The notes beneath the pieces were generated by a model. That model made no database searches, had not been told where the DNA came from, and saw only the letters and a list, made by a program, of their open reading frames with translations. A program made the translations under genes and the position numbers. This document shows, in pieces, positions 4,446 to 38,106 of a DNA stretch of 64,000 nucleotides. How positions within the stretch are numbered: position 1 is the first letter of the stretch; the number at the start of each line of letters is the position of its first letter. The DNA lies in the NCBI GenBank assembly GCA_007833815.1, contig CP033464.1, positions 3,652,001 through 3,716,000 of the forward strand. Reading direction: 5' to 3'. The DNA is from Brevibacillus laterosporus. Its GTDB lineage: Bacteria; Bacillota; Bacilli; Brevibacillales; Brevibacillaceae.

Positions 4446-7400
4446 TTACTTCAGCACAAAAATCTCTTGGAGAATTTCTTGGAGAACGGAAGCATTTCTA
4501 GTAACTTGTTCCCCGCCAAGCATTTTCGAATGCTCCCCATAGCCACTGTATGTTATGAATCGGTCTGATGCTTTCGCCCATTCTTCTTCATTCCATTTTG
4601 CAGCATCATAGGCATCCACGTTACCTTCCTCGCACTCTGATTGGATGAGATGAATAGTAGCCTCGGTAGTACCAACATTCACCAGTTGGTTATTAAACAT
4701 TAGATAACTGAGCATGTTTTGAATAAAACTTTGTTTGACAAAATCGTTGGTCAAGAATAGATCGAGATCCTCTCTTGTCATATTAAAAATCTCGTTATGA
4801 ACCCCTAATTCTGTAAAGAAAGTTTCAATATCTTTTCTTGCTTCAGCAGCTGTTTGTTCAATTGCTTTATCCTTCCAATAAGAATCAAATAGAATGATAT
4901 TGGACACCTGATGCCCTTGGCTTTCCAGCTCTTTCGCTACTTCGAACGCTAAATTCCCGCCTGAAGAATACCCCACTAAGGTATACGGACCTTCAGCATC
5001 GATCTGAACGATTGCATTGGCATACTGCTCAATACGATTGTCTTCTTCTATGAAATCAAAGCTATATAAAGAAATATCATGGATTTCTTCAGCAAGCTTT
5101 TGATAGAAGGTACTGTGGGCTCCGATTGGTGTAAAGCTAAATACAGGTCGAATCGTTTCTTTATTCAATAGAATCGGGTGCCCTGCATGTTGCTCGTACT
5201 GCTTATGCAAAATAAACTCTGCCATTTTTTCAATCGTAGGATGCTGGAATACAAGATGTAATGGCAACTCTTCTTGCATGTACTCATACACTTTTGAAAT
5301 GAGATGCATTGCTTTTAAAGAATGTCCTCCAATTTCAAAGAAATGATCTGTAATACCAATTGGCTCCACTTCTAATACTTCTTGCCAAATAGCTACCAAC
5401 TGTCCCTCTGTCATATTTCTTGGAGCAACATATTCTTTGGTTGCGATTCCGACCCTCTGTGGCTCTGGCAATGCTCTCTTATCTACTTTTCCGTTTGCAG
5501 TAATAGGTAGCTCAAGAAGCTGTACGAAGTAAGTAGGAACCATGTAGCCCGGTAGCTCCTTGGCAACATATTTTCTCAAATCTGTCAGCTCTAGTTCCTC
5601 TTCAGCAACGAAGTAGGCACATAAATATTGCTGTGCGTGTTGGTCTTCTTGAGCAGTAACAACTACTTCCTTAACGCTAGGATAGTTGAGAATGGTAGAT
5701 TCAATCTCTCCGATTTCAATTCGGAAACCACGCACTTTAACCTGTTCATCTACCCGACCAATGTATTCTATCGTGCCATCCGTAGTCCACTTCGCCAAAT
5801 CACCTGTTTTATACATACGCTCACCAGGTATAAATGGGTTAGCAACAAACTTTTCCTCCGTTAATTCTGATTGGTTTAAATACCCTCTAGCTAGTCCACG
5901 ACCTGCTATGCATAACTCACCAACCACACCTATAGGCTGTAAATGATGCTCGGTATTAACAATATAGACCGCTACATTGGCAAGTGGACGACCGATAGTA
6001 ATATCTTGACCCACTTCAATTGCCCTTTGAATGGTAGTAACGACACTATTCTCAGTAGGACCATATTCATTGTTAATCTCGATCGTAGAATTTTTTTGTT
6101 TGATCTTTTGCACGATTTTAGGAGATAATTTTTCTCCTCCTAGAGTGACACAACGCAATTGGTGCATATCCTCTGCTGTAGCGCTATCGATGATTGCATT
6201 AAACAGACTCGGAACACCATAGTAATGCGTAATGTTTTCAGACGCGATCAATTTTCGTAGAGCGAACGGATCTTTAGCCTCTTCTTCTCTCGGCAAGATA
6301 GAAACGGCCCCTCCCAACATGGGAGCAAATAGGCTGGCTACGAACCCATCAAAAGCAAATGAGAATATCTGTAGCGCTTTATCGTTTGGATTAAATGCGT
6401 ATTCATCCCTTCTCCATTGCAAGCAATTAATGATGGACCGATGTTCAATCATGACACCTTTTGGCTTACCTGTTGTACCTGATGTATAGATCACATAAGC
6501 CAAATCAGTTGATTGGTTCACAACAGTAGGATTTGTACCATCGCCTATATAGTTTTGATCATCATCTAGATCTATCCAATTCATCTGAGCAGATGATCCT
6601 TTGAATAGATGCGACTGGGTAAGTAGTAGAATTGCACCGCTATCTTCTAGTACATACTGAATGCGTTCCATAGGATACGCTGGATCAATAGGAACATAGG
6701 CTGCTCCCGCTTTCATGATACCCATGATACCAACAATCATTTCTAAGGAACGATCTGCCATGATAGCTACTAGCTGATTAGGAACGATTCCTTTATCACG
6801 TAGCGTATATGCTAATTGATTAGCTCTTTCATTTAGCTCTAGATAGGTCATTGTATTCTTGTTCCATACAAGAGCTACTTGATCAGGTGTTTTTCTCACT
6901 TGTTCCTCAAAGAGCTGTTGAATCGTTGTATCCTGCTGATAGTTCCTTGCCGTGTTAGTAAACTCTTGTAAAATCTGCTGCTTCTCTTTGTCAGTCAGCA
7001 TTTCGATAGCAGCTAATTTTACTTCTGGATTTTCTACGATCGCTTTCATAATCTGTAGGAAATAAGTAGTCAAACACTCTATCGTTTCCGGACGGTATAG
7101 TTTAGTGCAATACTCTACACCAATCATGATTTCGTCTCTCTCTTCTGTTGCGATAAACGTTACATCAAATTTAGAGTGCTTAGACTTATTTTCTGCCTCA
7201 TAAGCTGCAAATCGTAGCCCATCTAATTCAATAGACTCTTCTCCTCTGTTTTGCAGAGTAAACATGGTATCAAACATTGGATTTCTGCTTACATCTCGTT
7301 GTAGCTCAAGCTTCTCAACAAGCTCTTCAAATGGATAATCCTGATTTTCATAAGCTTGCAATGCATTTTGTTTTACTTCTAACAGGAACTCTTTAAATGA

Positions 7401-10400
7401 TTTAGTTCTAACTGGCTTGTTTCGCATGGCCAATGTATTGACAAACATTCCAACCGTGCTCTCCAAATCGACATGAGATCGACCTGTAACCGGCGTACCG
7501 ACAATCAGATCTTCTTGACCTGAATATTTCGAGAGTAGCACGTTATATGCGGCCAATAAGACCATATATAGAGTTGTTCCTGTTTCTGTAGCTATCCCGT
7601 ACAAGCCCTGCATAAGTTCTTTACCAGTACCAATGGTAAATAAATCTCCTTCAAAGCTTTGTGCATTTGGTCTTGGAAAATCTGTCGGTAGATTTAATAC
7701 AGGAACTTCATCTGCAAACGTTTGAACCCAATGATCTTCCTGTTTTTTATACATTTCAGTTTGATACTGTTCATGTTGCCATACAGAGAAATCCTTATAC
7801 TGAATAGGAAGTTCTGACAAAATATTTCCTTGATACAATTCCACCAATTCGCTGATCAGAATACCAGAGGATACTCCATCAGAAATAATATGATGTGTAT
7901 CCATTAGTAGCAAATGACGGTCCAATCGAGTTTGAACAAGCTTGACTCGAAGCAATGGTGCCATGTCTAACTGGAATGGTTGGATAAACTCATCAATAAT
8001 CTCTTCCAATTCTTCTTCGACAGCTACTTGAAGGTGAATATCAAAATCCACTTCTGTATGGATTTTCTGTACAGGTACACCATTTACTAGCTCGAAGGAT
8101 GTACGTAAGCTCTCGTGACGGGTGATTAAATCTTTAAAAGCTGCTTCTAGTTGTAACTGATCTAGTTTTCCTTCCAATACCATGATGGAAGGCATATTGT
8201 AGCTGATATCAACACCGTCAAACTGGTTAAGGATAAACATTCTTCGTTGTGCTGCTGAAACTGGATAGTAGTCTTGCTCCACAGCCGGTTGAATAGAGAT
8301 AACTTGCTTCGCACTATCCTTCTCTAAGTATTGGGCTATCTCTTCAATCGTTGGTTTTTCAAAAAGCACACGTAGTGGAATATCAATTTGGTACTCTTTA
8401 TGCATCTGAGAAATAACCATCATGGCACGTAGGGAATGACCACCTAAAGCAAAGAAGTCATCATTACGTCCAACTCGATCAACTCCTAATACCTGTTGCC
8501 AAACTGTAGCAAGCTGTGTTTCCAATTGTGTACTTGGAGCAACATAGTCCGTTTTAGCAAGTAAAGTATCGTCTGGCTCTGGTAACGAGCGCTTGTCAAT
8601 TTTTCCATTAGCGGTTAATGGCATTGCTTCAAGTAAGATAAAAGTAGTTGGAATCATCGCTATAGGAAGTTCTGCTGCCAGATGCGCGCGTATTTCCGCT
8701 ATGCTCACTTCTTTATCAGTGACCATATAGGCACATAGGAATTTCTCCTTCGCCTGATCCTCTTTCGCGATGACAATCACTTCTCTTAGACCATCAAGCT
8801 TACGCATCTGTGATTCAATCTCACCAAGCTCGATTCTGACTCCTCTGATCTTCACTTGATGATCTGTTCGACCAAGAAACTCTATATTTCCATCAGGTAA
8901 CCATTTTGCTAAATCTCCTGATCGATATAGCTTTTCTCCCGGCACAAATGGACTATCAATAAACTTTTCTGCTGTAAGATCTGGCCGGTTTAGATACTCG
9001 CGAGCGACCCCCGCTCCGCCTATGCATAATTCTCCCACGACTCCGATTGGCAGAAGACCTACATGCTGATCCATAATATACATGGTCGTGTTAGGAAGCG
9101 GTTTTCCAATTGGTGCTGTCCCAACCGCATGTAAAAGTTCAAGCGGTAGTTCATAATAACTTGAATCAATGCATGCCTCTGTAACACCATAGCTGTTAAT
9201 GATCCGAACGGAATTTCCAAATCTAGCAAGCAACGTCTTGAAATCTTCCATCGAGCAACTATCTGCTCCAATAATCAAGAGTTTTACCTGACTAATATCT
9301 AGATTTTGTTCGTAAATGTACTCCATCAAAGGAACAATTAGCGCAGGTGTTGATTCGAATATGGTAATTTGATATCTGCTAAGCATGTCATATAAAGAAG
9401 CAGGATCAAGTTTTACCTCATTTGGGCATATCACCAATTGTCCACCATGAAGTAAGGCCCGTGCAAAATCGCCAGCCGATACGTCAAACGAGAAGCTAGC
9501 CATCTGAAGTAAGCGAACAGGGAATGCTTCTAAGTGATACTCCTCTTTCCAAGCAAATGCTATGTTGATATAGCTTTGATGCTCAATAACGACCCCTTTT
9601 GGTTTACCTGTAGTACCAGATGTATAAATAATGTAAGCCATATGATGTTTCTCAGAGATATTCTGTAAATTGGATGCATCTTCTTGGTAGCATTCCTCTT
9701 GATCCAAATACAGGACTTCGTTTGCAAACACAAGCTGTCCTGCTAGTTTTTGCAAGGTAAGTAACAGCATTGCGTTACTATCTTCAAGCATAAACTCCTT
9801 GCGATCTTGTGGATAGTCCATGTCAATAGGCACGTACGCCCCGCCCGCTTTTAAAACGGCCAACATACTGACAACCATGTGCAGAGAACGATCTACAATG
9901 ATACCTACTGTCCGTTCAGGTTGAACTCCCTTTTGGCGTAGAGTTCGTGCTAGCTGATTCGCTTTAGCATTTAACTCCTGATAAGTGAGCTGTTCGTTTG
10001 CATAAATGACGGCGATATCATTTGGTGTTTTTTCTACTTGTTCCTCGAATAGCTGATGGAACATCTTATTCATCGGATACGAAACAGTCGTTTCATTGAA
10101 GTCAAACAAAATTTGATTTGTTTCTGACTCTGACAATACGCTAATTTCCGAAAGCTTCATATCCGGCTGTGTCACGATAGACTGTAAAATTTGAGAATAA
10201 TGGATTACCCAACGTTCTATCGTTTGCTTTGTAAATAATTTAGTGCAATAACTAAATTGGAATTGAATTTCATCGTGTTTTTCAAAGGCATCCAATGAAA
10301 TATCAAACTTCGCAATTTGTCCCTTCATTTCATAAGGGATATAGATAAGTCCATCTATTTCAAAGCCTGTTGAATCGGTATTTCCTAAACTAAACATGGT

Positions 10401-13400
10401 GTCAAACAATGGATTCCTGCTCAAATCACGTCGAATTTGTAGCTTTTCAACAAGATTCTCAAATGGGTAATCCTGGTTTTGGAAAGCCCCTAGCGCATTA
10501 TGCTTCACTTCAGCTACAAATTCACGGAAAGTTAGCTCGCCTAGTGGTGCATTTTTCAAAGCGAGGGTATTAACAAACATACCGACGATATTCTCCACAT
10601 CTGCGTGTGATCTACCAGCAATCGGTGTACCAATAATAATTTCTTCTTGACCAGTGTATTTGGACAATAGCACATTGTAAGCTGCCAACAGAAGCATATA
10701 CAATGTTGCTCCCGTCTCATTAGACAAACGCTGTAAATCTGCCATAAGCTGTTTTCCTGAGCCAAAAATAATGTGATCTCCTTCAAAACTCTGTACAGAA
10801 GGTCTTGGGAAGTCAGTTTGCAGGTTCAGGATCGGTAATTCCCCTGCAAATGTATGAACCCAAAAATCTTCTTGTCTTTGAATGGCCTCAGATTGGAACA
10901 ACTCATTTTGCCACACTGCATAGTCTTTATACTGGATGTCAAGTTCAGGCAGATTTTGTTCATTATATAATTGGGCAAATTCTTTGATGATGATCTGCAT
11001 GGACACACCATCAGAAATGATATGATGCATATCCATTAAGAAGAGATGACGTTTTTCTGATAAGGTAACAAGACTTATTCTAAATAATGGAGCTATTTCC
11101 AAATCAAATGGTTGTATAAACTCTTCCACAATTTGTTCGACTTGATCCTCTGATGACTCTTGATAAGTAACAGAAAAATCTACAGTATCATGGATTTTCT
11201 GAACAGGCTCACCGTTGATCGTGTGGAAAGAAGTCCGCAGTGCTTCATGTCGGTTGACCAAGCTTCTCATCGCATAATCAAAACGCTTGTAATCCAAACT
11301 TCCCTCTATGAACATCACTCCAGGAACATTATAACTAATACCTGTTCCCTCGAATTGATGAAGGATATACATCCGTTTTTGTGCCGAAGAAACGGGATAA
11401 AAATCAGTCTGCGTAGCTTGCTGAATCGCTACGTACTTTCCTTTTTCTAGTCCAGCAATATAGGCTGCCAAGGAAAGGATTGTAGGCGTTTCAAACAGGA
11501 CTTTTAATGGTAATTCAACATGGAACACCTTGTGCACCGAGGAAATCACTGTCATTGCCTTTAGGGAATGCCCTCCCAATTCAAAGAAGTTGTCCAACAC
11601 ACCTATCTTGAATACCCCTAATACATTTTGCCAAATCTCGACCAATTGTTCCTCGATTTGATTACTTGGTGCTACGTATTCTGTTCCTGAAGTCAGTTCT
11701 CCATCTGGTTTTGGCAATGTCCTGCGATCTACTTTTCCATTTGGTGTGAGTGGCATTTTCTCCAGCTGAACAAAGAAAGTCGGTACCATATAGGAAGGGA
11801 GTTCCTCAGCTAGTTGCTCTCGCAATTTTGATAAAAGGATATTGTCTTCTGACACGTAATATGCACACAATGCTTTTTGGCCACTCTTATCCTCCACTAC
11901 GGTTATGACAGACTCCTTCACCTTATCTTGTCTAGCAAGAACAGATTCAATCTCTCCAATTTCAATACGGAACCCTCTAATTTTTACTTGTTGGTCGATT
12001 CGTCCTAAGTATTCAATCGTTCCATTAGGTAACCATCTGACCAAGTCTCCTGTACGATACAATTGCTCTCCCAGGACAAATGGGTTAGAGACAAATTTTT
12101 CTGCGGTTAACTCAGGTTTATTGATATACCCCCTTGCAACCCCTTCTCCTCCAACGCATAACTCACCCGGAACCCCGATTGGTTGTAGTTGATTAAATGG
12201 ATCGAGAACATAAGCTGTCGAGTTACTGATTGGCTTACCAATCGGTATGTTATCACTGAACTCCTCATCAATTCGGAAGCATGTAGAGAATGTGGTGTTC
12301 TCTGTTGGTCCATAGCCGTTCCAGATCACTAGGCTAGGATTTTTTTGTTTCACCTTATTAATGTGTTTAGGTGACAAGACATCTCCACCAACAATTAAGT
12401 CTGTAAGGCCAGCAAACATTTCCTCATTGTCTTGTGATAATTGATTAAATAGTGGTGATGTTAGCCACATTGTCGTAATTTGGTTTGTCTGTAAGAAGCC
12501 GCCTAATAACTCTGTATCCAACAAAATATCCTTGTTGACAAGATATAAGCGTGCTCCATGCAGCAAGGAACCAAAAATTTCAAAAGTCATCGCATCAAAA
12601 CCAATAGCACCTGTCTGAATCATTCGATCTTCTGGTTTCACCTGGACATAATTGGTGTTTTTCACTAGACGAACCACATTTCTATGCTCGACCATAACAC
12701 CTTTTGGTTTTCCAGTGGAACCGGATGTGTACATGATATAAGCCAAATCATTCGGATGATTGATACTTGGAAGATTAGTAGCATCTCCTTGGTATAAGCT
12801 TTCATCATCCAATAGAATCAGGTCTACTTCTTCCTGTACAAGTGGAGCTAAATGACGTAACGAAAGAACAATTTTAACTTCGCAATCTTCTAACATGTAA
12901 GAAATTCGTTCAGAAGGGTACTCAGGGTCAATCCCTAAATAAGCTCCTCCTGCTTTGAGAATCCCCATGATCGCTACAATCATTTCATGAGAGCGATCAG
13001 CCAAAAGACCGACAACCTGATTTGACTCTACGCCTCTTTGGCGTAGTGCACTCGCTACTTGATTGGCTCTATTATTTAACTCTTGATACGTTAATGTATT
13101 CCCTTCTGATATGACTGCTATATAATCTGGAGTCTTTTCTACTTGCTCCTCGAACCATTGGTGAATGGCTATCATCCTTGGGTAATCTGTTTTTGTATCA
13201 TTAAATTCAACAATGATTTGTTGCTTTTCTTCCTCAGATAACAAGCTGATCTCTGACAAAGCTACCTCTGGCTGCTTAGTGACAGCATGGATTATTTGTA
13301 AGAAATGACTAGCCATTCTTTCCATGCTTTCTTTCTTAAATAATCTCGTGCTATATACGAATGAGAACTGTAATCCCGATTTCTCTTCGTTCGCTTCCAG

Positions 13401-16400
13401 TGTAAGGTCAAACTTCGAATAGCCTCTTTGTGCAACATGAGGAGTTACCTGCACCTCTTCTAATGCAAAAGATTTCTTCTCCATATTCTGCAAAATAAAC
13501 ATGATGTCAAATAAAGGATTTCTACCTAGGTCTCTTTGAATTTCTAACTTTTCGACGAGTACTTCGAATGGATAATCCTGATTTTCATAGGCTTCCAAGG
13601 TATTTTGTTGTACTTCTGTCAAAAATGCTTTGAACGTTTTCATACCATTTGGATTATTTTTTAAAGCCAGTGTATTAACGAACATTCCCATTACTTTTTC
13701 TACATCAGGATGTGATCTACCAGCAATAGGAGACCCTACCACAATCTCTTCTTGACCAGAGTACTTGGAAAGTAAGACATTGAAGGCTGCCAACAATACC
13801 ATATATAACGTTGTTGATGTTTCATTAGCGAGTTTGTATAAATCCTCCATGACTTGTCTTCCAGTATGAAAAACAACTTGATCCCCATCGAAGCTCTGCA
13901 TAGTCGGTCTAGAATGATCTGTTGGCAAATTAAGAACAGGGATTTCTCCTGCAAATGTATTGATCCAATAGGCCTCCTGTTTCTTGAAAATGTCTGATTC
14001 AAACAGTTCATTTTGCCATACAGCAAAATCCTTGTATTGGATTCGAAGGTCTGGCAAGCTCTCACCACGATATAATTGAGCAAATTCCTCAAAGACAATC
14101 CCTGCTGATACACCATCTGAGATAATATGATGCATATCCATTAGGAATAGATGTTTCTCTTCCTCTATTTTGATAAGTCCAACACGTAATAACGGAGCTA
14201 CCTCAAGGTCAAAGGTTTGAATAAACTCATCCACCACTTGATCTACTTGTTCCTTCGATGCTTCTTTATAGAAAATTTCTAATTCCACCACTTGATGTAC
14301 ACGCTGCACTGGTTCACCGGTAACAGAATGGAAAGAGGTTCTCAACGCTTCATGTCTGTTCACTAAATGTTGAAGGGCGGCTTCAAAGCGCTGATGGTCC
14401 AGCTTACCATCCATGTATAGAGCACTAGGCATGTTGTAGATGGTTCCAGCTCCTTCAAACTGTCGAAGGATGTACATTCTTTTCTGTGCGGACGAAACCG
14501 GATAATATTCTTTTGGCAGGATAGGTTGAATGGCTGCATAATTACTTTTCTCTGCTTGATTAATGAACGTAGCTAACTGTGCAATAGTAGGCTTCTCAAA
14601 TATCAACTTCAGAGGAAGTTCAACACCACATTCTTTATGCACGTGAGACATAACCGTCATAGCTCTTAACGAATGACCACCTAAATCAAAGAAGCTATCA
14701 TTTACGCCAATCTTGTTAAGTCCTAATACATTCTCCCAAATCTCAACCAGTTTTTCTTCTGTTTCATTATGAGGAGCTACATATACGGTTCCCGAAACTG
14801 GATCTCCCTCTGGTTTTGGCAATGCTCCTTTGTCTACTTTTCCGTTTGGCGTTGTGGGGAATGCTTCCAGTTGTACAAAATAAGTCGGAACCATGTACTC
14901 AGGTAATTCTTTCGCTAGGTGTGCTCTCAGCTCAGGTAATAGAATTTCTTCTTCCGCTGTAAAGTACGCAGTTAAGAATTGCTGTCCATTTGTATCCTGA
15001 TGGACGACCACTATTGCCTCATTCATTTTATCGAATGTTAGAGTAGCATTTTCGATCTCACCGATTTCAATCCGATAGCCTCTAATTTTAACCTGTTCAT
15101 CCATGCGACCAATATATTCAATCGTGCCATCTGGCAACCACTTAGCAAAATCACCCGTTTTATACATGCGTTCACCTGGTACAAACGGATTAGGAACAAA
15201 TTTCTCTTTTGTAAGGTCTGGTCTGTTCAAATATCCTCTTGCTAATCCCGATCCACCGATGCATAATTCACCGATCACACCAATAGGTTGTAGGAGATGA
15301 TTGCTATCAAGAATATAGACAGCTACATTTGCTAAAGGACGACCGATTGTGATATTTTGCCCTACTTCAATTGAACGCTGAATCGTTGCAATAACACTAT
15401 TCTCTGTTGGGCCGTATTCATTGTTAATCTCAATGGAATGATTTTTTTGTTTAGCCTTTTGCACAATCTGAGGAGGTAATTTTTCTCCCCCTAGTGATAC
15501 GCATCGCAATTGGTGTAAGTCTTCTGACGTAGTGCAATCAAGGATTGCCTGAAACAAACTAGGTACGCCATGGTAATGCGTAATGGTTTTAGATACGATC
15601 AATTTTTTTAGAGCGAATGGGTCTTTTGCTTCTTCTTCCCTAGGCAAGATGGAAGTTGCTCCTCCCATCATTGCAGTAAACAAGCTAGCCACGAATCCAT
15701 CAAAAGCAAAGGAGAAGATCAATAGAACCTTATCATTTGGGTTAAAACCGTATTCCACTTTTCGCCATTGTAAGCAATTGGCGATAGACCGATGTTCAAT
15801 CATGACGCCTTTTGGTTTGCCTGTTGTACCCGATGTATAAATTACATAGGCAAGGTCAGTAGCTTGATTCACGCGGGATAGGTTTGTGCCATCGCCTACA
15901 TAGTTTTGCTCATCATGAAGATCCATCCATTTGATCTCGGTTGCTATTTGTTTTATCAGATGTGATTGAGTAAGAAGTATAGTAGCACCACTATCTTCAA
16001 GTAAGTATTCAATACGATCTTGTGGATAAGCTGGATCAATTGGCAAATAAGCTGCTCCTGATTTTAAAACCCCAAATATCCCCACAATCATTTCAACTGA
16101 TCGTTCTGTCATGATACCTACAATTTGATCGGGTTGTACTCCTTTATTCCGCAGAACCACGGCTAATTGGTTAGCTCTCTCATTTAACTGTCTATAAGTC
16201 AATGTTTGTCCAGCATAATGTAATGCGATGTGGTCAGGTGTTTTTTCTACTTGTTCTTCAAATAAACTCTGCACCGTGCTGTCCATTGGATAATGTACAT
16301 GAAAATCATTAAAGTCAACTAGTACTTGTTGTCTTTCCTCTGCGGTCAGCATGTTTATTTCTGATAAAGCAATCTCTGGATTTTTCGTCACTGCACGTAC

Positions 16401-19400
16401 AATTTGTAGGAAATGAGTTGCCATTTTTTCAATGGTTTCCTGTTTAAATAGCTTAGAGCAATATTCAAGGCAGAACACGATCTCTGCATTCTCTTCGGTT
16501 GCTTCTAAAGTAAGATCGAATTTAGCTTGTTTAACCTCGGTAATATACGGGCTAAAAGTTAAATTTTCAATTTCAAATATTTTCTTGTCAGTATTTTGTA
16601 AGATGAATATCGTGTCAAATAATGGGTTTCGGCTCAGTTCACGGTGTATATCCAGTTTTTCAACAAGCACTTCAAATGGATGGTCCTGATTTTCATAGGC
16701 TTGTAACGTGTTTTGTTTTACATCCTCTACAAATTCTTTAAACGACTTCGTTCCAACTGGATAATTTCGAAGAGCCAGAGTATTAACAAACATCCCCATA
16801 ATTTGCTCCACATCGGCGTGTGATCTGCCTGCGATAGGAGTTCCTACGATAATATCCTCTTGTCCAGAATACTTGGAAAGGAAAATATTATAGGCTGCTA
16901 ATAGAACCATGTAGAGAGTTGTACCTGTATCATTAGCAATTTGATATAACTCCTCCATCAAATCTGTTCCTGTATGAAAAATGAATCGGTCTCCATCAAA
17001 GCTTTTAGTCAGAGGCCGTGGGAAATCAGTCGACAGATTTAGGAGAGGAATTTCTCCTTCAAATGTATGGAGCCAATACGCTTCCTGCTTCTTCAAAACA
17101 CCAGATTCAAACCATTTGTTTTGCCAAGTAGCAAAATCTTTATATTGTAAACGAAGTTCAGTCATATCCTTACCTTGATACAGCTGCACAAATTCCTTGA
17201 TAAAGATTCCTAATGAAACCCCATCCGCGATAATATGGTGCATATCTAACAAGAAGAGATGACGCTCCTCTGTTAACTTGACAATTCCCACACGCAACAG
17301 TGGTGCAAGCGAAAGATCAAATGGCTGAATAAATTGAGTAACAAGTGTATCTACCTGATCTTCTGTTGATGTTGAATAGGAGATTGGTAAATCAATATTT
17401 TCATGTATACGTTGAACAATTTCTCCGTTCATGGAGTGGAAAGAAGTTCGTAACGATTCATGCCTTTGAACCAACGTTTTCATTGCAAATTCAAGACGCT
17501 GTACATCCAGACTGCCATCAATGTACATTACCCCTGGCATGTTATAACCAAGATCAGCCCCAGCTAACTGGCGAAGAATATACATTCTCTTTTGAGCGGA
17601 TGAAACAGGATAGTATTCCTGAGGCTGTACTGGTTGAATATCCGAATAATCGCCCTTGTCAGCATTTGCGATGTATGTAGCTAATTTTGCAATCGTTGGA
17701 TTTTCAAAAATCATTCTAAACGGTACATCTACTTGAAACACCTTATTTATCTTAGAGATCATGTTCATCGCTTTTAATGAATGACCGCCTAATTCAAAGA
17801 AGTTATCTTCCATTCCGATTTTGTTTACAGATAGAACTTCATTCCATATTTCACTTACCTGCATTTCAATATGGTTACGAGGAGCTACATATTCTACACC
17901 TGTAACAATAGAACCATCAGGTTTAGGAAGGGCACTACGATCCACCTTCCCATTTGGAGTAAGCGGGATTTTATCCATCCGAACAAAATAAGAAGGAATC
18001 ATATAGATTGGTAGAGCATTTCCAACATGCGCTCTCAAATCTGATACAGTTATTTCTTGTTCCGAAACAATGTAAGCATACAGCGAGTGAGAATTGTCCG
18101 CTTGTTGAGCAATAACGACCGCCTCTTTAATGAACTCGTGCTGTAATAATTGCTTCTCAATCTCACCTAGCTCAATACGATATCCTGCCATTTTTACCTG
18201 ATGATCTGCTCTACCTAAAAACTCTACGTTTCCATCTGACAAATATCTCGCCAAATCTCCAGTGCGGTACATGCTGGCACCTGATATAAATGGATTTGGA
18301 ACAAATTTTTCCTCTGTTAAGCTAGTCTGTTTCAAGTAGCCTTTGGAAACACCCTCACCACTAATGCATAACTCTCCAACGATACCTGATGGCACGATTT
18401 GGTTCCTTCCATCAAGCACGTATACCTGCGTATTCGCAATCGGTTTTCCGATGAATGGTCGTTCTACAAATTCAGTAATATTTTTTGTATCCAATAGATG
18501 AGTTACACATCCAATGGTCGTCTCAGTTGGCCCATAGTGATTCATGATTTGTGCAGAGGAATATTTTTCAAGATACCTTGTAACATCAGCAACTCGAATT
18601 GGCTCTCCTCCCATAACGATTAGCCGCAGAGAATCGCAATCATTTGTCATCATGAAAGATTCACTTTGCACAATCACGCTAAACAGTGAAGGAGTCATTT
18701 TTACGTACGTAATCTGATTCTCTCTCATATACGACATTAGATGCTCAGTATGGATGTACTCATCTTTTGTTAATAAGTGTAATTGACCGCCTGACAAAAG
18801 AGCTGAAAAAATTCCTGTATAACCTAAATCAAATGCGTAGGATGAGACAAGTACCGTTCTATCCTCAGGTGTTAAATGAGCTTGACGTGAAAATGCAGAT
18901 ACGTAGTTTATTACATTCCGATGAGCTATCTGTACTCCTTTAGGCACTCCTGTAGTTCCTGATGTATAAATGACATAAGCAAGATCCTCTGAGCTTACCT
19001 CCGTTACTTTTGGTAAACGCAAATCATGCTTCGTCATTACTTTATTCAACGAGATCGTGCTTACTGTCGTTGGAAGAGTATTTGACAAATCGCTCAAAGT
19101 AAGAATGACATCTACATCACTGTTTTCTAACATATAGCTAATCCGCTCTTCTGGAGCATCAGGGTCGATTGGTAGATAAGCCCCACCTGCTCCCCATATC
19201 CCCATGATTCCGACAATCATTTCTAAGGATGGCGGTGTCATGATTCCAACAATCTTATTCGAACTTACACCTTTTTCTTGTAAAAGAGCTGCTACATGAT
19301 TTGCTTTTTCATGTAGTTCCTGATAAGTTAATTTTTCTTTTCCGAACACAACTGCATCTTGTAACGGATATTTCTTTACGCACGATTCAAACAAGTTATA

Positions 19401-22400
19401 CAAGGTTAGATCACGTGGAAAATCAGCTATCACCCCAGATGTCTTATCCATAATTTTCACTTGATCTTCTTTGGTTAGAAGTGGGATTTCGACAAGTTTT
19501 TGCTCTACATTTTCAACAAAAGCACGTAGTATCATTTGGAAATGATTAGCAACCTGCTGGATGGTCTCACGCTTAAATAAGGCTGTACTGTATTGTAATT
19601 TGCAATGAATTTCTCCGTTTTCTTCAGTAGCAAAAAGTGTAATTTCCACTTTAGAGATGGAGTGAACAAAGGCATATGGTGTTATTGTCAACTGATCCAG
19701 CTCAAATGTGGTTTGGTCCATGTTCTGCAACACAAGCATTGTATCAAACAACGGATTTCGACTAAAATCCCGAGGTAAATCCAATTTGTCAACCAAAGCC
19801 TCAAATGGATAATCTTGATGTTCATACGCGCCTAGTGTCATTTGTTTCACTTCAGCGATAAGCTCGCTTACTGTTTTACTTGCTTCTGGGTAAGTTCGCA
19901 TTGCAAGTGTATTAATAAAGGTTCCCATAATACGCTCAACATCAGCATGTCTTCTTCCCGCAATTGGCGAGCCTACAATAATTTCTTCTTGCCCAGCATA
20001 CTTGGATAAAAGCACACTGTATGCAGAGAGCAACACCATATACAAGGTAGCTCCCGATTTTGCTGTTACGTCGTATAGACCAGAAGCCATTTGTTTTGGA
20101 ATAACAAAATCAACACCATCACCTTCAAAGCTTTGAACAGATGGTCTTCGCGAATCCGTAGGTAGCTGAAGTACCGGGATTTCACCTTTTAATGTGCCGA
20201 CCCAGTAGTTCTCTTGTTTCTCAAATATCTCAGATTGGAACAACTCATTTTGCCAAACAGCGAAATCCTTATACTGAATGCGTAGCTCAGGCAAGGTCTC
20301 ACCATGATAGAGCTTCATAAATTCTTCGACAAACACAGAGATAGATACTCCATCGGAAATGATATGGTGGATATCCATGATGAAGAGATGCTTCTGCTCT
20401 TCCAGAGTAACCAAGCCGACTCGAAGCAAAGGAGCAGCAGATAGATCAAATGGCTTAATAAAATCCTTAACAATTTGTTCTATTTGATCTTCCGTGGAAT
20501 CCATCCGAATCATTTGTAAATTAACATCAAGATGCACTTTTTGTGACGGTTCTCCGTTCACAGAATGGAAGGAAGTACGTAATGCTTCATGTCGATTCAC
20601 TATACTTTTCATTGCATATTCAAAACGCTGAGTATCTAAATTTCCTTCAATGATTAAAGCGCCTGGCATATTATAGCTAACACTATCCTCATTAAGCTGA
20701 TGAAGGATATACATTCTCTTTTGAGCAGAAGAAACTGGATAGTATTCTTGTGTTACTACAGGTTGAATAGCAGAGTACATTCCATTTTCAGTGTTGGCAA
20801 TAAAATGAGAAATGGCAGCAATGGTAGGTGTGTCAAATAGTACCTTCAAGGGTAAATCAACATTGAATGCCTTAGATACCTGCGAAATAACCGTCATCGC
20901 TTTTAGAGAATGTCCACCTAATTCAAAAAAGTTATCCAAAACGCCAATCTCATCTACACCTAATACACTCTTCCAAATCGTAACCATTTGGTCTTCGATT
21001 AGGTTTCGTGGTGCCACATATTCCACACCTGTGCGAATCACACCGTCAGGTTTTGGTAATTTTTTTCTTTCTACTTTACCGTTGGATGTTAAAGGGATTT
21101 CTTCCAATCGGATGAAGTAGGATGGGATCATATAGGATGGCAAGGTGCTTCCTACATGTTCACGGAGTTCGGAAATAGGTAACTCAACATTAGAAACAAG
21201 GTAAGCATATAGAACGTTTTGAGATGATTCATCTTTCTCTACAATAACGACAGCTTCTTTGATCATTTGATGCTGTACTAATTTTGCTTCAATCTCGCCC
21301 ATTTCGATCCGATGCCCTCTAATTTTTACCTGATGGTCGGTTCTTCCTACATATTCCATATTTCCATCTGGCAACCATTTCGCAAGATCACCTGTCCGAT
21401 ACATTCTCTCCCCCGGTATAAAGGGACTTTCCATAAATTTATCTGCTGTCAAATCAGGGCGATTCAAATATCCTCTGGCAATTCCATCTCCAGCAATGTA
21501 CATCTCTCCAATTGAGCCGATAGGCACGGGATGCAAGGCATCATCTAATAGATAGATTTTGACATTGTCGGCTGGTACTCCAATCGGGACCGAATTTTGT
21601 GCAGTATTGTTAGGGTCAAATACATAAATCATGCAACCTACTACGGTTTCAGTAGGCCCATACTCATTCATAATCTGGACATTTCCACCGAAATTGCTAT
21701 ATATTTTGTTAGCTAGCTGTGTATGTAAGTTCTCACCGCCAACAATAAATCTTCTAATATTGCTAGTTGATCCATCGAACTCTTCCATTAACCTTAGATG
21801 TGTTGGTGTTAACTTAATGATTCCAACTTTATTTTCTTTGAGGATGTCTTGAATGACCTGTACCTTGTCTTCTCCTCTATAAATGTGGATCGTATTACCG
21901 GAAACAAGCGGTGTAAAAATTGACGTGACTGTCAAATCAAACGAAATGGAAGAATAGAGTGGGAAATGAACCGTCTCATTTTGCACATACACTTTTTTGG
22001 CCCACCAAATATAATTGACAAGCCCTTGATGAGTGATCATGGCTCCTTTAGGATTTCCAGTAGAACCTGAGGTATAGATGATATAGGCCAAGTCACTCGT
22101 TTTGTTTACACATTCAAGATTGGCAGAATTTCCTTGGTACAGCTCTTGATTGTCTAGGTAAAGAATCTCTCCGTTAAAATCAAGTTTATGTGAAAGCTTT
22201 TGCTGTGTAAGCAATATAGTTGTTTGACTATCTTCTAGCAAATACTGAATTCGATCTTCTGGATAATCAGGATCAATAGGTAAATATGTAGCCCCAGATT
22301 TTAAAATAGCCAGTATCCCCACAACTAGCTCTAAGGAATGTTCTACCATAATTGAAACAACACTATCGACAGTAACTCCTTTCTCTCTTAACAAATGCGC

Positions 22401-23912
22401 CAGTTGATTGGAGGTTTCGTTTAACTCCTGATAGGTTATTTGTTCTTCTAGGCATACTGCTGCCAATTGGTGTGGTGTTTTAGCCACCTGCTCTTCAAAT
22501 AACTCATAGATCGTCTTAGAGTGTGGGTATTCAGATGTCGTGTTATTATAGGCCACTACTAATTGTTGTTTTTCTTGCTCGGTCAGTATCGTAATATCTT
22601 TTAGTAATACATCAGGATTTTCGATCACCTGAACAACAATATTTTTGATATGGCCCTGCATTCTAGTAATAAAGGCTGAATCATAAACAGCAGAATTATA
22701 GCTTAGCTTAATCATCATTTCATTCCACGGTGCTACTGCAACAACTACATTCAAATCATACGTTGTCTGCTCTTCTCCATTGTCTATGCGTATACTAAAC
22801 CCTAAAGATTCCTCTAAAGCCTCCATGTTATTGTCTGGATAATTTTCAAACGTAACAAGGTGATCAATGAGTTCTTGTTTAACCAATGACTGGCTTTGAA
22901 TTTCATATAAAGGGGCATAGTCATACTTTGTAGATTGGATTGAATTTTCCCGTGCACTTTTTATTACTTCATGAAAAGAGAGCACACCATTGCTATGTAA
23001 ACGAGTCGGAATGGTATTGATGAACAGCCCTACCATATTTTCAATGCCTTGTATTTCTGGAGGTCTACCTGAGACAACCGAGCCAAATACAACATCATCC
23101 GTATTTTTATATTTGCTAACCAAAACGCCCCAAATGGCATGGAATACATTGCTTAAAGTAGCCTGATTACGATTCGCGATCTGCATGAGGTTTTTTGTTA
23201 TGCCCTGATCTAATGTAAAAAGGGTTTCCTCAAGTTCGTAGTTTTCCTTCCCAGCTTGAATCTTGTTTTTAGGGAATTCAGTATGCAATTCATAGCCTTC
23301 TAAATAATTGTTCCAATACTTCAATGCTTCTTCTTTATTTTGTTTTTCCAGCCATTTGATATATTCACTATACGGTTTGGTTGCTTCGCGAGGAATGGAT
23401 TCATTTGCTCTTAAGACCGCGTAATAGCCAAGAAGTTTATGAATAAGAATTCCTAATCCCCAGCCATCAATGATGATGTGATGCAGAGCCCAAACAAATT
23501 GATACGATTTATCACCTGTTTGAAAAATAGCTGCTTTCATTAATACATCTTTAGCCAAATCAAATCCTTGTTCTTTACCGCTGTTTTTGTACGTTTCAAT
23601 ATATTCTTTTTGCTCATCATCCGCAAAACGCGTGATATTCTCAAAATATACATTCATTCTTCTTTCTTTAAACACAACCTGTCTCGCACGTTGTAAGTTT
23701 TGATAAACAAATGCTGTACGGAGAACTTCATAGTTTTCGATCAGTTTATTCATACTTTGCTCAAACAATTGAAGATCAAAATCGCCATGAATGGTAGCAG
23801 ACATTTGGAGATAGTAAGCACTTGTATTGTCATCCTTGATAGAATGGAACAGCATTCCTTCTTGCAATGGGGTTAATGGGTAAACTTTTGCAATATTATC
23901 TTGTTTTTTCAT
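4446..23912 (-). CDS. Six-module NRPS with terminal thioesterase, TycC-like (Asn-Asp-X-Val-Orn-Leu)
   Basis: 6488 aa: six C-A-T modules and a cyclising TE, adding residues 5-10 of the decapeptide. Phosphopantetheine serines (GGHS) fall near residues 1002, 2041, 3081, 4116, 5159 and 6194. Adenylation pocket codes in GrsA order (235-331): module 1 DLTKIGEVG (Asn), 2 DLTKVGHIG (Asp), 3 DGAHSGEVI (close to Leu DGAYTGEVV, uncertain), 4 DAFWIGGTF (Val), 5 DVGEIGSID (Orn), 6 DGAYTGEVV (Leu). The first C domain has LTPLQEGMLFH and HHIIIDG, the type that accepts a D-residue from an upstream E domain. No E domain is present, so these six residues stay L. The TE (about 6250-6488) has GYSSGG (Ser near 6318), LFDS and GEH for the catalytic triad. 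Start ATG follows GAGGTG. Codes were read by eye against GrsA. Confidence 0.97.
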   Translation of the reverse strand: MKKQDNIAKVYPLTPLQEGMLFHSIKDDNTSAYYLQMSATIHGDFDLQLFEQSMNKLIENYEVLRTAFVYQNLQRARQVVFKERRMNVYFENITRFADDEQKEYIETYKNSGKEQGFDLAKDVLMKAAIFQTGDKSYQFVWALHHIIIDGWGLGILIHKLLGYYAVLRANESIPREATKPYSEYIKWLEKQNKEEALKYWNNYLEGYELHTEFPKNKIQAGKENYELEETLFTLDQGITKNLMQIANRNQATLSNVFHAIWGVLVSKYKNTDDVVFGSVVSGRPPEIQGIENMVGLFINTIPTRLHSNGVLSFHEVIKSARENSIQSTKYDYAPLYEIQSQSLVKQELIDHLVTFENYPDNNMEALEESLGFSIRIDNGEEQTTYDLNVVVAVAPWNEMMIKLSYNSAVYDSAFITRMQGHIKNIVVQVIENPDVLLKDITILTEQEKQQLVVAYNNTTSEYPHSKTIYELFEEQVAKTPHQLAAVCLEEQITYQELNETSNQLAHLLREKGVTVDSVVSIMVEHSLELVVGILAILKSGATYLPIDPDYPEDRIQYLLEDSQTTILLTQQKLSHKLDFNGEILYLDNQELYQGNSANLECVNKTSDLAYIIYTSGSTGNPKGAMITHQGLVNYIWWAKKVYVQNETVHFPLYSSISFDLTVTSIFTPLVSGNTIHIYRGEDKVQVIQDILKENKVGIIKLTPTHLRLMEEFDGSTSNIRRFIVGGENLHTQLANKIYSNFGGNVQIMNEYGPTETVVGCMIYVFDPNNTAQNSVPIGVPADNVKIYLLDDALHPVPIGSIGEMYIAGDGIARGYLNRPDLTADKFMESPFIPGERMYRTGDLAKWLPDGNMEYVGRTDHQVKIRGHRIEMGEIEAKLVQHQMIKEAVVIVEKDESSQNVLYAYLVSNVELPISELREHVGSTLPSYMIPSYFIRLEEIPLTSNGKVERKKLPKPDGVIRTGVEYVAPRNLIEDQMVTIWKSVLGVDEIGVLDNFFELGGHSLKAMTVISQVSKAFNVDLPLKVLFDTPTIAAISHFIANTENGMYSAIQPVVTQEYYPVSSAQKRMYILHQLNEDSVSYNMPGALIIEGNLDTQRFEYAMKSIVNRHEALRTSFHSVNGEPSQKVHLDVNLQMIRMDSTEDQIEQIVKDFIKPFDLSAAPLLRVGLVTLEEQKHLFIMDIHHIISDGVSISVFVEEFMKLYHGETLPELRIQYKDFAVWQNELFQSEIFEKQENYWVGTLKGEIPVLQLPTDSRRPSVQSFEGDGVDFVIPKQMASGLYDVTAKSGATLYMVLLSAYSVLLSKYAGQEEIIVGSPIAGRRHADVERIMGTFINTLAMRTYPEASKTVSELIAEVKQMTLGAYEHQDYPFEALVDKLDLPRDFSRNPLFDTMLVLQNMDQTTFELDQLTITPYAFVHSISKVEITLFATEENGEIHCKLQYSTALFKRETIQQVANHFQMILRAFVENVEQKLVEIPLLTKEDQVKIMDKTSGVIADFPRDLTLYNLFESCVKKYPLQDAVVFGKEKLTYQELHEKANHVAALLQEKGVSSNKIVGIMTPPSLEMIVGIMGIWGAGGAYLPIDPDAPEERISYMLENSDVDVILTLSDLSNTLPTTVSTISLNKVMTKHDLRLPKVTEVSSEDLAYVIYTSGTTGVPKGVQIAHRNVINYVSAFSRQAHLTPEDRTVLVSSYAFDLGYTGIFSALLSGGQLHLLTKDEYIHTEHLMSYMRENQITYVKMTPSLFSVIVQSESFMMTNDCDSLRLIVMGGEPIRVADVTRYLEKYSSAQIMNHYGPTETTIGCVTHLLDTKNITEFVERPFIGKPIANTQVYVLDGRNQIVPSGIVGELCISGEGVSKGYLKQTSLTEEKFVPNPFISGASMYRTGDLARYLSDGNVEFLGRADHQVKMAGYRIELGEIEKQLLQHEFIKEAVVIAQQADNSHSLYAYIVSEQEITVSDLRAHVGNALPIYMIPSYFVRMDKIPLTPNGKVDRSALPKPDGSIVTGVEYVAPRNHIEMQVSEIWNEVLSVNKIGMEDNFFELGGHSLKAMNMISKINKVFQVDVPFRMIFENPTIAKLATYIANADKGDYSDIQPVQPQEYYPVSSAQKRMYILRQLAGADLGYNMPGVMYIDGSLDVQRLEFAMKTLVQRHESLRTSFHSMNGEIVQRIHENIDLPISYSTSTEDQVDTLVTQFIQPFDLSLAPLLRVGIVKLTEERHLFLLDMHHIIADGVSLGIFIKEFVQLYQGKDMTELRLQYKDFATWQNKWFESGVLKKQEAYWLHTFEGEIPLLNLSTDFPRPLTKSFDGDRFIFHTGTDLMEELYQIANDTGTTLYMVLLAAYNIFLSKYSGQEDIIVGTPIAGRSHADVEQIMGMFVNTLALRNYPVGTKSFKEFVEDVKQNTLQAYENQDHPFEVLVEKLDIHRELSRNPLFDTIFILQNTDKKIFEIENLTFSPYITEVKQAKFDLTLEATEENAEIVFCLEYCSKLFKQETIEKMATHFLQIVRAVTKNPEIALSEINMLTAEERQQVLVDFNDFHVHYPMDSTVQSLFEEQVEKTPDHIALHYAGQTLTYRQLNERANQLAVVLRNKGVQPDQIVGIMTERSVEMIVGIFGVLKSGAAYLPIDPAYPQDRIEYLLEDSGATILLTQSHLIKQIATEIKWMDLHDEQNYVGDGTNLSRVNQATDLAYVIYTSGTTGKPKGVMIEHRSIANCLQWRKVEYGFNPNDKVLLIFSFAFDGFVASLFTAMMGGATSILPREEEAKDPFALKKLIVSKTITHYHGVPSLFQAILDCTTSEDLHQLRCVSLGGEKLPPQIVQKAKQKNHSIEINNEYGPTENSVIATIQRSIEVGQNITIGRPLANVAVYILDSNHLLQPIGVIGELCIGGSGLARGYLNRPDLTKEKFVPNPFVPGERMYKTGDFAKWLPDGTIEYIGRMDEQVKIRGYRIEIGEIENATLTFDKMNEAIVVVHQDTNGQQFLTAYFTAEEEILLPELRAHLAKELPEYMVPTYFVQLEAFPTTPNGKVDKGALPKPEGDPVSGTVYVAPHNETEEKLVEIWENVLGLNKIGVNDSFFDLGGHSLRAMTVMSHVHKECGVELPLKLIFEKPTIAQLATFINQAEKSNYAAIQPILPKEYYPVSSAQKRMYILRQFEGAGTIYNMPSALYMDGKLDHQRFEAALQHLVNRHEALRTSFHSVTGEPVQRVHQVVELEIFYKEASKEQVDQVVDEFIQTFDLEVAPLLRVGLIKIEEEKHLFLMDMHHIISDGVSAGIVFEEFAQLYRGESLPDLRIQYKDFAVWQNELFESDIFKKQEAYWINTFAGEIPVLNLPTDHSRPTMQSFDGDQVVFHTGRQVMEDLYKLANETSTTLYMVLLAAFNVLLSKYSGQEEIVVGSPIAGRSHPDVEKVMGMFVNTLALKNNPNGMKTFKAFLTEVQQNTLEAYENQDYPFEVLVEKLEIQRDLGRNPLFDIMFILQNMEKKSFALEEVQVTPHVAQRGYSKFDLTLEANEEKSGLQFSFVYSTRLFKKESMERMASHFLQIIHAVTKQPEVALSEISLLSEEEKQQIIVEFNDTKTDYPRMIAIHQWFEEQVEKTPDYIAVISEGNTLTYQELNNRANQVASALRQRGVESNQVVGLLADRSHEMIVAIMGILKAGGAYLGIDPEYPSERISYMLEDCEVKIVLSLRHLAPLVQEEVDLILLDDESLYQGDATNLPSINHPNDLAYIMYTSGSTGKPKGVMVEHRNVVRLVKNTNYVQVKPEDRMIQTGAIGFDAMTFEIFGSLLHGARLYLVNKDILLDTELLGGFLQTNQITTMWLTSPLFNQLSQDNEEMFAGLTDLIVGGDVLSPKHINKVKQKNPSLVIWNGYGPTENTTFSTCFRIDEEFSDNIPIGKPISNSTAYVLDPFNQLQPIGVPGELCVGGEGVARGYINKPELTAEKFVSNPFVLGEQLYRTGDLVRWLPNGTIEYLGRIDQQVKIRGFRIEIGEIESVLARQDKVKESVITVVEDKSGQKALCAYYVSEDNILLSKLREQLAEELPSYMVPTFFVQLEKMPLTPNGKVDRRTLPKPDGELTSGTEYVAPSNQIEEQLVEIWQNVLGVFKIGVLDNFFELGGHSLKAMTVISSVHKVFHVELPLKVLFETPTILSLAAYIAGLEKGKYVAIQQATQTDFYPVSSAQKRMYILHQFEGTGISYNVPGVMFIEGSLDYKRFDYAMRSLVNRHEALRTSFHTINGEPVQKIHDTVDFSVTYQESSEDQVEQIVEEFIQPFDLEIAPLFRISLVTLSEKRHLFLMDMHHIISDGVSMQIIIKEFAQLYNEQNLPELDIQYKDYAVWQNELFQSEAIQRQEDFWVHTFAGELPILNLQTDFPRPSVQSFEGDHIIFGSGKQLMADLQRLSNETGATLYMLLLAAYNVLLSKYTGQEEIIIGTPIAGRSHADVENIVGMFVNTLALKNAPLGELTFREFVAEVKHNALGAFQNQDYPFENLVEKLQIRRDLSRNPLFDTMFSLGNTDSTGFEIDGLIYIPYEMKGQIAKFDISLDAFEKHDEIQFQFSYCTKLFTKQTIERWVIHYSQILQSIVTQPDMKLSEISVLSESETNQILFDFNETTVSYPMNKMFHQLFEEQVEKTPNDIAVIYANEQLTYQELNAKANQLARTLRQKGVQPERTVGIIVDRSLHMVVSMLAVLKAGGAYVPIDMDYPQDRKEFMLEDSNAMLLLTLQKLAGQLVFANEVLYLDQEECYQEDASNLQNISEKHHMAYIIYTSGTTGKPKGVVIEHQSYINIAFAWKEEYHLEAFPVRLLQMASFSFDVSAGDFARALLHGGQLVICPNEVKLDPASLYDMLSRYQITIFESTPALIVPLMEYIYEQNLDISQVKLLIIGADSCSMEDFKTLLARFGNSVRIINSYGVTEACIDSSYYELPLELLHAVGTAPIGKPLPNTTMYIMDQHVGLLPIGVVGELCIGGAGVAREYLNRPDLTAEKFIDSPFVPGEKLYRSGDLAKWLPDGNIEFLGRTDHQVKIRGVRIELGEIESQMRKLDGLREVIVIAKEDQAKEKFLCAYMVTDKEVSIAEIRAHLAAELPIAMIPTTFILLEAMPLTANGKIDKRSLPEPDDTLLAKTDYVAPSTQLETQLATVWQQVLGVDRVGRNDDFFALGGHSLRAMMVISQMHKEYQIDIPLRVLFEKPTIEEIAQYLEKDSAKQVISIQPAVEQDYYPVSAAQRRMFILNQFDGVDISYNMPSIMVLEGKLDQLQLEAAFKDLITRHESLRTSFELVNGVPVQKIHTEVDFDIHLQVAVEEELEEIIDEFIQPFQLDMAPLLRVKLVQTRLDRHLLLMDTHHIISDGVSSGILISELVELYQGNILSELPIQYKDFSVWQHEQYQTEMYKKQEDHWVQTFADEVPVLNLPTDFPRPNAQSFEGDLFTIGTGKELMQGLYGIATETGTTLYMVLLAAYNVLLSKYSGQEDLIVGTPVTGRSHVDLESTVGMFVNTLAMRNKPVRTKSFKEFLLEVKQNALQAYENQDYPFEELVEKLELQRDVSRNPMFDTMFTLQNRGEESIELDGLRFAAYEAENKSKHSKFDVTFIATEERDEIMIGVEYCTKLYRPETIECLTTYFLQIMKAIVENPEVKLAAIEMLTDKEKQQILQEFTNTARNYQQDTTIQQLFEEQVRKTPDQVALVWNKNTMTYLELNERANQLAYTLRDKGIVPNQLVAIMADRSLEMIVGIMGIMKAGAAYVPIDPAYPMERIQYVLEDSGAILLLTQSHLFKGSSAQMNWIDLDDDQNYIGDGTNPTVVNQSTDLAYVIYTSGTTGKPKGVMIEHRSIINCLQWRRDEYAFNPNDKALQIFSFAFDGFVASLFAPMLGGAVSILPREEEAKDPFALRKLIASENITHYYGVPSLFNAIIDSATAEDMHQLRCVTLGGEKLSPKIVQKIKQKNSTIEINNEYGPTENSVVTTIQRAIEVGQDITIGRPLANVAVYIVNTEHHLQPIGVVGELCIAGRGLARGYLNQSELTEEKFVANPFIPGERMYKTGDLAKWTTDGTIEYIGRVDEQVKVRGFRIEIGEIESTILNYPSVKEVVVTAQEDQHAQQYLCAYFVAEEELELTDLRKYVAKELPGYMVPTYFVQLLELPITANGKVDKRALPEPQRVGIATKEYVAPRNMTEGQLVAIWQEVLEVEPIGITDHFFEIGGHSLKAMHLISKVYEYMQEELPLHLVFQHPTIEKMAEFILHKQYEQHAGHPILLNKETIRPVFSFTPIGAHSTFYQKLAEEIHDISLYSFDFIEEDNRIEQYANAIVQIDAEGPYTLVGYSSGGNLAFEVAKELESQGHQVSNIILFDSYWKDKAIEQTAAEARKDIETFFTELGVHNEIFNMTREDLDLFLTNDFVKQSFIQNMLSYLMFNNQLVNVGTTEATIHLIQSECEEGNVDAYDAAKWNEEEWAKASDRFITYSGYGEHSKMLGGEQVTRNASVLQEILQEIFVLK

Positions 23913-34783: not shown

Positions 34784-34878
34784 CCAAGCACCCCTCACTT
34801 CTTATTTTTTGCCTTTCATACAATAATATGGAACGAAACTATATGCATATCCCTCAAAGCTCTATAGCTAACTATTTA

Positions 34879-37800: not shown

Positions 37801-38106
37801 TTCTTGTGGATATTCAATATCAATGGGAACATATGCCCCACCAGCTTTTAAAATCGCTAAAATAGAGATGACCATGTCTATTGATCTTTCCATAAAAATC
37901 CCGACAATATGGTCTGTTTGAACGCCTTTTTCAATCAATAATCGTGCGAGTTGATTCGCCTTGCAATTAATCTCTCGATAGGTAAGTTTTTCTTTTTCAA
38001 AGATGATGGCAGGATTGTCTGGGGTCTTCTCAACTTGATCTTCAAAAAGTTGATGAATTGTTTTATCATACGGGTACGGTGTGGTTCGTGTATGACTGTT
38101 CACCAT
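34879..38106 (-). CDS. Initiation NRPS A-T-E, TycA/GrsA-like (predicted D-Tyr)
   Basis: 1075 aa with a stand-alone loading architecture. The adenylation domain (about 25-520) includes [11 protein letters not shown] and the core lysine in NDKIDRKAL. The carrier domain has GGDS near residue 550. The epimerase (about 600-1060) has [22 protein letters not shown] and FNYLGQFD. There is no C domain, so it starts the chain. The pocket reads DASTIAAIC. TycA/GrsA have DAWTIAA(V/I)C for Phe; here Trp239 is Ser (FDASVSEF), and the code is one conservative step per differing site from a listed Tyr code, DASTVAAVC. That predicts Tyr, delivered as D-Tyr, as expected for loloatin. ATG at 38106 follows AGGAGG. 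It is the first gene of the operon; the C-terminal tail probably docks to the next synthetase. Confidence 0.95.

Follow-up and report, generated by a model that had tools for sequence, protein, structure and literature searches.

What does a synthetase module select when its A domain carries a Leu-like pocket at a position where an aromatic residue is expected, and how did such a domain come to stand there? The question is raised by module 7 of an NRPS operon of Brevibacillus laterosporus, which lies in the 64,000-nucleotide stretch of contig CP033464.1 analysed here as a whole (the window). The initial annotation offered two answers: a copy of the module-10 A domain in module 7, or a Leu pocket widened for Tyr or Trp. 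Each is partly supported by the results below.

The operon and its predicted scaffold

Three NRPS genes, all on the minus strand, carry 1, 3, and 6 modules. TycA-like gene A (34879–38106) has the code DASTIAAIC and a TIGR01720 match at its C-terminus, which is taken as the mark of an E domain. TycB-like gene B (24020–34798) has codes for Pro, Phe, and Phe (DVQSVAHVV, DAWTIAGIC, DAWTIAGIC) and, near its C-terminus, a fourth HHxxxDG motif, read as an E domain; E domains at these two gene ends would give D-residues at positions 1 and 4, as expected of a loloatin/laterocidin synthetase. TycC-like gene C (4446–23912; 6488 aa) has codes for Asn, Asp, a residue X7, Val, Orn, and Leu (DLTKIGEVG, DLTKVGHIG, DGAHSGEVI, DAFWIGGTF, DVGEIGSID, DGAYTGEVV), and a GxSxG motif (GYSSG) near its C-terminus is read as a TE domain. 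Two ABC-transporter-like genes (793–2571 and 2562–4364, minus strand) lie downstream of the synthetase genes. All nine-residue codes were taken from a MAFFT alignment to the GrsA-like domain A1, with numbering from Asp235.

Under the usual code-to-residue assignments, which we take to hold here, the scaffold reads Tyr/Phe-Pro-Phe-Phe-Asn-Asp-X-Val-Orn-Leu, DLTKVGHIG at module 6 presumably standing for Asp. This series on a 1-3-6 module layout, including Asp6, is that of a loloatin/laterocidin synthetase. The code DAWQFGLID, which we take to be that for Gln, was seen at module 6 in all 11 tyrocidine-type operons that were fetched and is absent from the window, so that, with its Asn5-Asp6 codes, the window does not belong to the tyrocidine line. 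From its codes, the operon appears to encode a loloatin/laterocidin-type cyclic decapeptide synthetase of the B. laterosporus group.

Loloatins A–D share this scaffold but carry Tyr or Trp at position 7 where the window has a Leu-like code. Laterocidin matches the window codes at predicted residues 2–6 and 8–10, the residue-1 code is compatible with its Tyr, and its Leu7 agrees with the Leu-derived position 7 predicted for the window (available passages of PMC6510442). TycABC has in common with the window the six-module TycC layout, the 1-3-6 arrangement, and orthologous module-7 C and T domains, but differs at module 6 (DAWQFGLID versus DLTKVGHIG) and at module 7 (D[AG]LTTGEVV versus DGAHSGEVI).

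Three further features of the genome were observed. The A1 code DASTIAAIC is identical in all four laterosporus-group operons and fits D-Tyr1; it differs by Trp239Ser from what we take to be the GrsA/TycA Phe code, DAWTIAAIC, and an engineered W239S change of GrsA has reportedly been named in the literature. Modules 3 and 4 share 91.3% identity in their A domains (25517–30208), which points to recent duplication or conversion. The 5.76 Mb window genome has 115 matches to PF00501 (AMP-binding family), several of them within one open frame of 12205 residues.

A Leu-type core in a module-7 frame

The code DGAHSGEVI in the A domain of module 7 (third in the six-module protein; 14640–16229, minus strand) and the Leu code DGAYTGEVV in that of module 10 (5289–6878, minus strand) had been read by the initial annotation, and both are confirmed by MAFFT, which places the residues at 278, 299, 322, 330, and 331 of A1; the shift at 278/299 that had been feared is thus not seen. 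A pairwise global alignment to A1 put Gly at 278, a misplacement in DGA-type domains, and the MAFFT alignment was used instead. The likeness that had been noticed between the two domains also holds: the segments FDGFVASLF, LPREEEAKDPFAL, and INNEYGPTENSV are present in both, and their identity of 71.7% is the second highest among the 45 A-domain pairs in the operon (median 44.7%), rising to 77.6% in the A core.

The comparison with tyrocidine, in which module 7 had been given the unrelated code DALVTGAVV, needs correction. Among the 12 tyrocidine-type genomes of the family search, gene C was fetched for 11, and module 7 of these (L141–L151) reads DALTTGEVV in nine operons and DGLTTGEVV in two; the twelfth genome (G024) agrees in coordinates with the B. 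formosus genome behind L042, in which module 7 has DGLTTGEVV. In these genomes DALVTGAVV is not borne out. When 364 A domains were compared, the nearest relatives of the tyrocidine Tyr7 core outside its own group were Leu cores (60–63% identity), and therefore "unrelated" does not hold.

Identity along module 7 changes partner from one part to the next. The C domain (16353–17705, minus strand), which is orthologous to that of tyrocidine module 7, is 64% identical to it and 56% identical to that of laterosporus module 10, and the T domain is likewise closer to tyrocidine module 7 (54% versus 47%). Laterosporus module 10 is the closer in the A3–A4 stretch (82% versus 58%) and in the substrate subdomain (77% versus 54%), whereas the A5–A8 stretch is 71% identical to both and the C-terminal subdomain of the A domain is about equally close to tyrocidine module 7 (54%) and laterosporus module 10 (57%).

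The trees, built from 12 of 16 synthetase sets (G014, G017, G019, and G035 left out) with six chosen outside rows added for the A core, divide in the same places. Module 7 groups with tyrocidine module 7 in the C-domain tree (support 100/100) and in that of the A C-terminal subdomain plus T domain (14547–15029, minus strand; 100/99), but its A core (module residues 560–850; 15087–15959, minus strand; the Leu-like segment itself may begin and end elsewhere) groups with the Leu cores of the GrsB module 4/TycC module 6 type (95/97) and outside the Tyr7 clade. The check for a grouping of this domain with TycC3-type Tyr domains, set by the initial annotation, therefore has a divided outcome: the C domain and the subdomain plus T domain do group with them, and the A core does not. 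When the laterosporus module-7 cores are held with the Tyr7 cores, the log-likelihood falls by 12.8 (AU p 0.0396), a modest and narrow rejection. The root of the A-core tree is unsure because no branch sets the two named outgroup rows apart from the rest and two long outside rows came together, and module 10 of G005, cut by a contig end, is absent from this tree, from the subdomain-plus-T tree, and from the Leu counts. A two-breakpoint scan puts the start of the Leu-like segment at module residues 314–641 and its end at 736–841, a loose fit that 5 of 300 shuffles equalled.

Judged from these alignments, module 7 is a mosaic, its C and T domains being of the tyrocidine-module-7 type and the A core between them of the Leu type found in module 10. 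Natural recombination of A domains in NRPS evolution has been described, and module 7 resembles it in that its A core differs in type from the C and T domains on either side (available passages of PMC8097286); in module 7, the exchange may have run in either direction. One possibility, less likely by our estimate and compatible with any substrate, is that the Leu-type core is ancestral at module 7, having come from an early duplication of a module, and that the Tyr core was acquired or evolved in the tyrocidine lineage. It is consistent with the Leu cores being the nearest outside relatives of the Tyr7 core, and a tree that places the laterosporus module-7 cores outside all the Leu cores, those of module 10 included, withstands the AU test (p 0.273). 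Against it, the best A-core tree nests these cores with the laterosporus Leu cores (83/93, a node that is not starred), as would follow if a Leu-type core had entered module 7 in the laterosporus lineage.

The module-7 pocket and its predicted substrates

Module 7 shares with GrsB module 4 and TycC module 6 the A-core clade and the DGA..GEV pocket, but has His278 (codon 15570–15572, minus strand) and Ser299 (15495–15497, minus strand) in place of Tyr278 and Thr299, the pair of the DGAYTGEVV-type Leu A domains. His278 is found in all four laterosporus-group module-7 domains, versus Tyr278 in 18 of 18 Leu cores. Thr299 is likewise present in 18 of 18 Leu cores, while the module-7 domains of the window, G004, G003, and G005 have Ser, Ser, Ser, and Thr, respectively; position 331 (codon 15390–15392, minus strand, in the window) is Ile, Leu, Ile, and Ala in the same order. 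Of 399 genomes of the class, 4 have a DNA pattern that encodes THYHGVP with a Ser after it, and thereby His278; they are the same four. Since His278 is common to all of these, the change most likely predates their split.

The pocket shell comprises 34 positions, one of which is gapped, leaving 33 compared. Five of the 33 vary among the four module-7 domains, versus none or one in each Leu-core quartet (3060 quartets, which overlap and are not independent), and tyrocidine Tyr7 core quartets vary at 0–5 positions, mostly 2–3. In both lineages, then, position 7 seems to be under looser constraint than position 10. Differences specific to the laterosporus module-7 domains are not enriched in the shell (2/33 versus 7/195, p 0.38), which speaks against a simple redesign of the pocket. 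The window domain retains Ile331 and Trp213, like the Leu cores, and may be more Leu-like than its sisters. Solved structures matching at 1e-60 comprise 51 distinct chain sequences, with LgrA the best. A literature text search for DGAHSGEVI and four related codes gave no match, but carries little weight, as it missed textbook codes too.

Reported peptides bear on both residues at issue. Laterocidin, a Leu7 cyclodecapeptide of B. laterosporus, has already been described (available passages of PMC6510442 and PMC4553477), and therefore the new aliphatic-7 analogue that had been proposed is not needed; such a peptide would be laterocidin. Passages of PMC6510442, PMC4553477, PMC9320710, and PMC9698797 give B. 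laterosporus as a source of loloatins, among them loloatin A from strain IGM52 (PMC9320710) and loloatins together with bogorols as products of strain LB4 (PMC9698797); a passage of one paper instead attributes loloatins to B. brevis. In the loloatin passages covered here, no genes or codes for loloatin or laterocidin were found.

For B. laterosporus BGSP11, passages of PMC6510442 give MALDI masses of 1223.97 and 1274.78 for fractions 56–57 from cells, and 1223.92 and 1274.02 for fraction 57 from the supernatant; these are low-resolution values that come without sequence or module-7 allele, and Ile weighs as Leu. Among 56 scaffold variants in which residues 1, 3, 4, and 7 were varied, the first mass fits Tyr1-Phe3-Phe4-Leu7 only and the second Tyr1-Phe3-Phe4-Tyr7 only. 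The fit is suggestive and not proof, because one random mass matches at least one of the scaffold variants in 33% of draws, and in 3.2% two such masses match variants that are the same except at residue 7. In the same passages, the tyrocidine range given by the authors (1269.6–1361.7) covers the 1274 mass, and the two masses are not assigned to these peptides. As published, the masses suggest that BGSP11 may make both Leu7 and Tyr7 forms.

We favor, with a probability of about one half, a loosened Leu-derived pocket in module 7 whose predicted substrates are Leu and Tyr, and perhaps Trp. Its A core, Leu-like and of the module-10 type, is framed by module-7 C and T domains; Tyr278His most likely arose before the four genomes split, and positions 243, 299, and 331 went on changing. 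His278 together with Ala239 would leave an enlarged pocket in which Leu is still activated and Tyr and perhaps Trp are admitted, so that the line would yield both laterocidin (Leu7) and peptides like loloatin A (Tyr7) at the same time, in a ratio set by the module-7 allele and the amino-acid supply. Somewhat more tentatively, the whole may be a natural aliphatic-to-aromatic switch, in which a Leu core placed in a module-7 frame was opened by Tyr278His and tuned at 243, 299, and 331, one synthetase giving Leu7 and Tyr7 (or Trp7) products and strains shifting their ratio. The system is of a familiar kind, an NRPS in which one A domain is mosaic and one position probably promiscuous, and is specific in its detail. 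If the loosened-pocket reading is true, the reports of Leu7 (laterocidin) and aromatic-7 (loloatin) peptides from B. laterosporus would trace to one pocket, a short natural path would lead from a Leu pocket to a mixed or aromatic one, and code-based prediction may call residue 7 Leu where the product is mixed.

A pocket for aromatic residues only, as in a loloatin synthetase proper, is the less probable outcome by our estimate, which we put at the doubtful end: Tyr278His and Thr299Ser would turn the Leu pocket to Tyr or Trp and leave little Leu. This is close to the widened pocket of the initial annotation, which stays live because His278 is fixed in the four domains, at a position invariant in Leu cores, and loloatins, with their Tyr or Trp at position 7, are reported from the species. 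An exclusively aromatic pocket is opposed by the Leu7 laterocidin reported from the species and by the 1223.9 mass in BGSP11, and is favored by the loloatins of strain LB4.

Still less likely, module 7 could select Leu alone, as in a laterocidin synthetase proper, with His278 near-neutral. Six of the nine letters of DGAHSGEVI equal those of DGAYTGEVV and two more changes (T to S, V to I) are conservative, which leaves Tyr278His alone; the identity to the Leu core and the Leu7 of laterocidin also agree with such selection. The uniform contrast between His278 in the four domains and Tyr278 in the Leu cores speaks against it, and the variation at five shell positions is unlike selection for Leu alone.

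Age and distribution of the core

The module-7 domain, at an identity of at least 79%, was found in four of six genomes of the genus searched, and the four laterosporus-group cores (window, G004, G003, and G005) form one clade (98/98). Recent gene conversion of module 7 by module 10 within the window genome is highly improbable, because, even though core likeness between the modules is higher in the window (77.6%) than in G004 (72.4%) or G003 (69.3%) and a short tract could still be hidden, a tree that pairs window module 7 with module 10 of the same operon is rejected (AU p 2.6e-27) and no more than 34 of 72 fourfold sites agree. On the sequence evidence, the Leu-type module-7 core is old and common to four genomes of the genus, and is no recent copy. 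The proposal of a module-10 copy thus stands for the Leu-type core between module-7 C and T domains, and falls for a recent copy from the module 10 of the same operon.

A second Leu core with the code DGAYTGEVV occurs in a two-module NRPS of 2346–2347 aa elsewhere in the window genome, G003, and G004 (L111, L112, and L113). These three cores are near-identical to one another and are placed among the module-10 cores of the decapeptide line in the A-core tree, which suggests that a Leu core has been exchanged between clusters.
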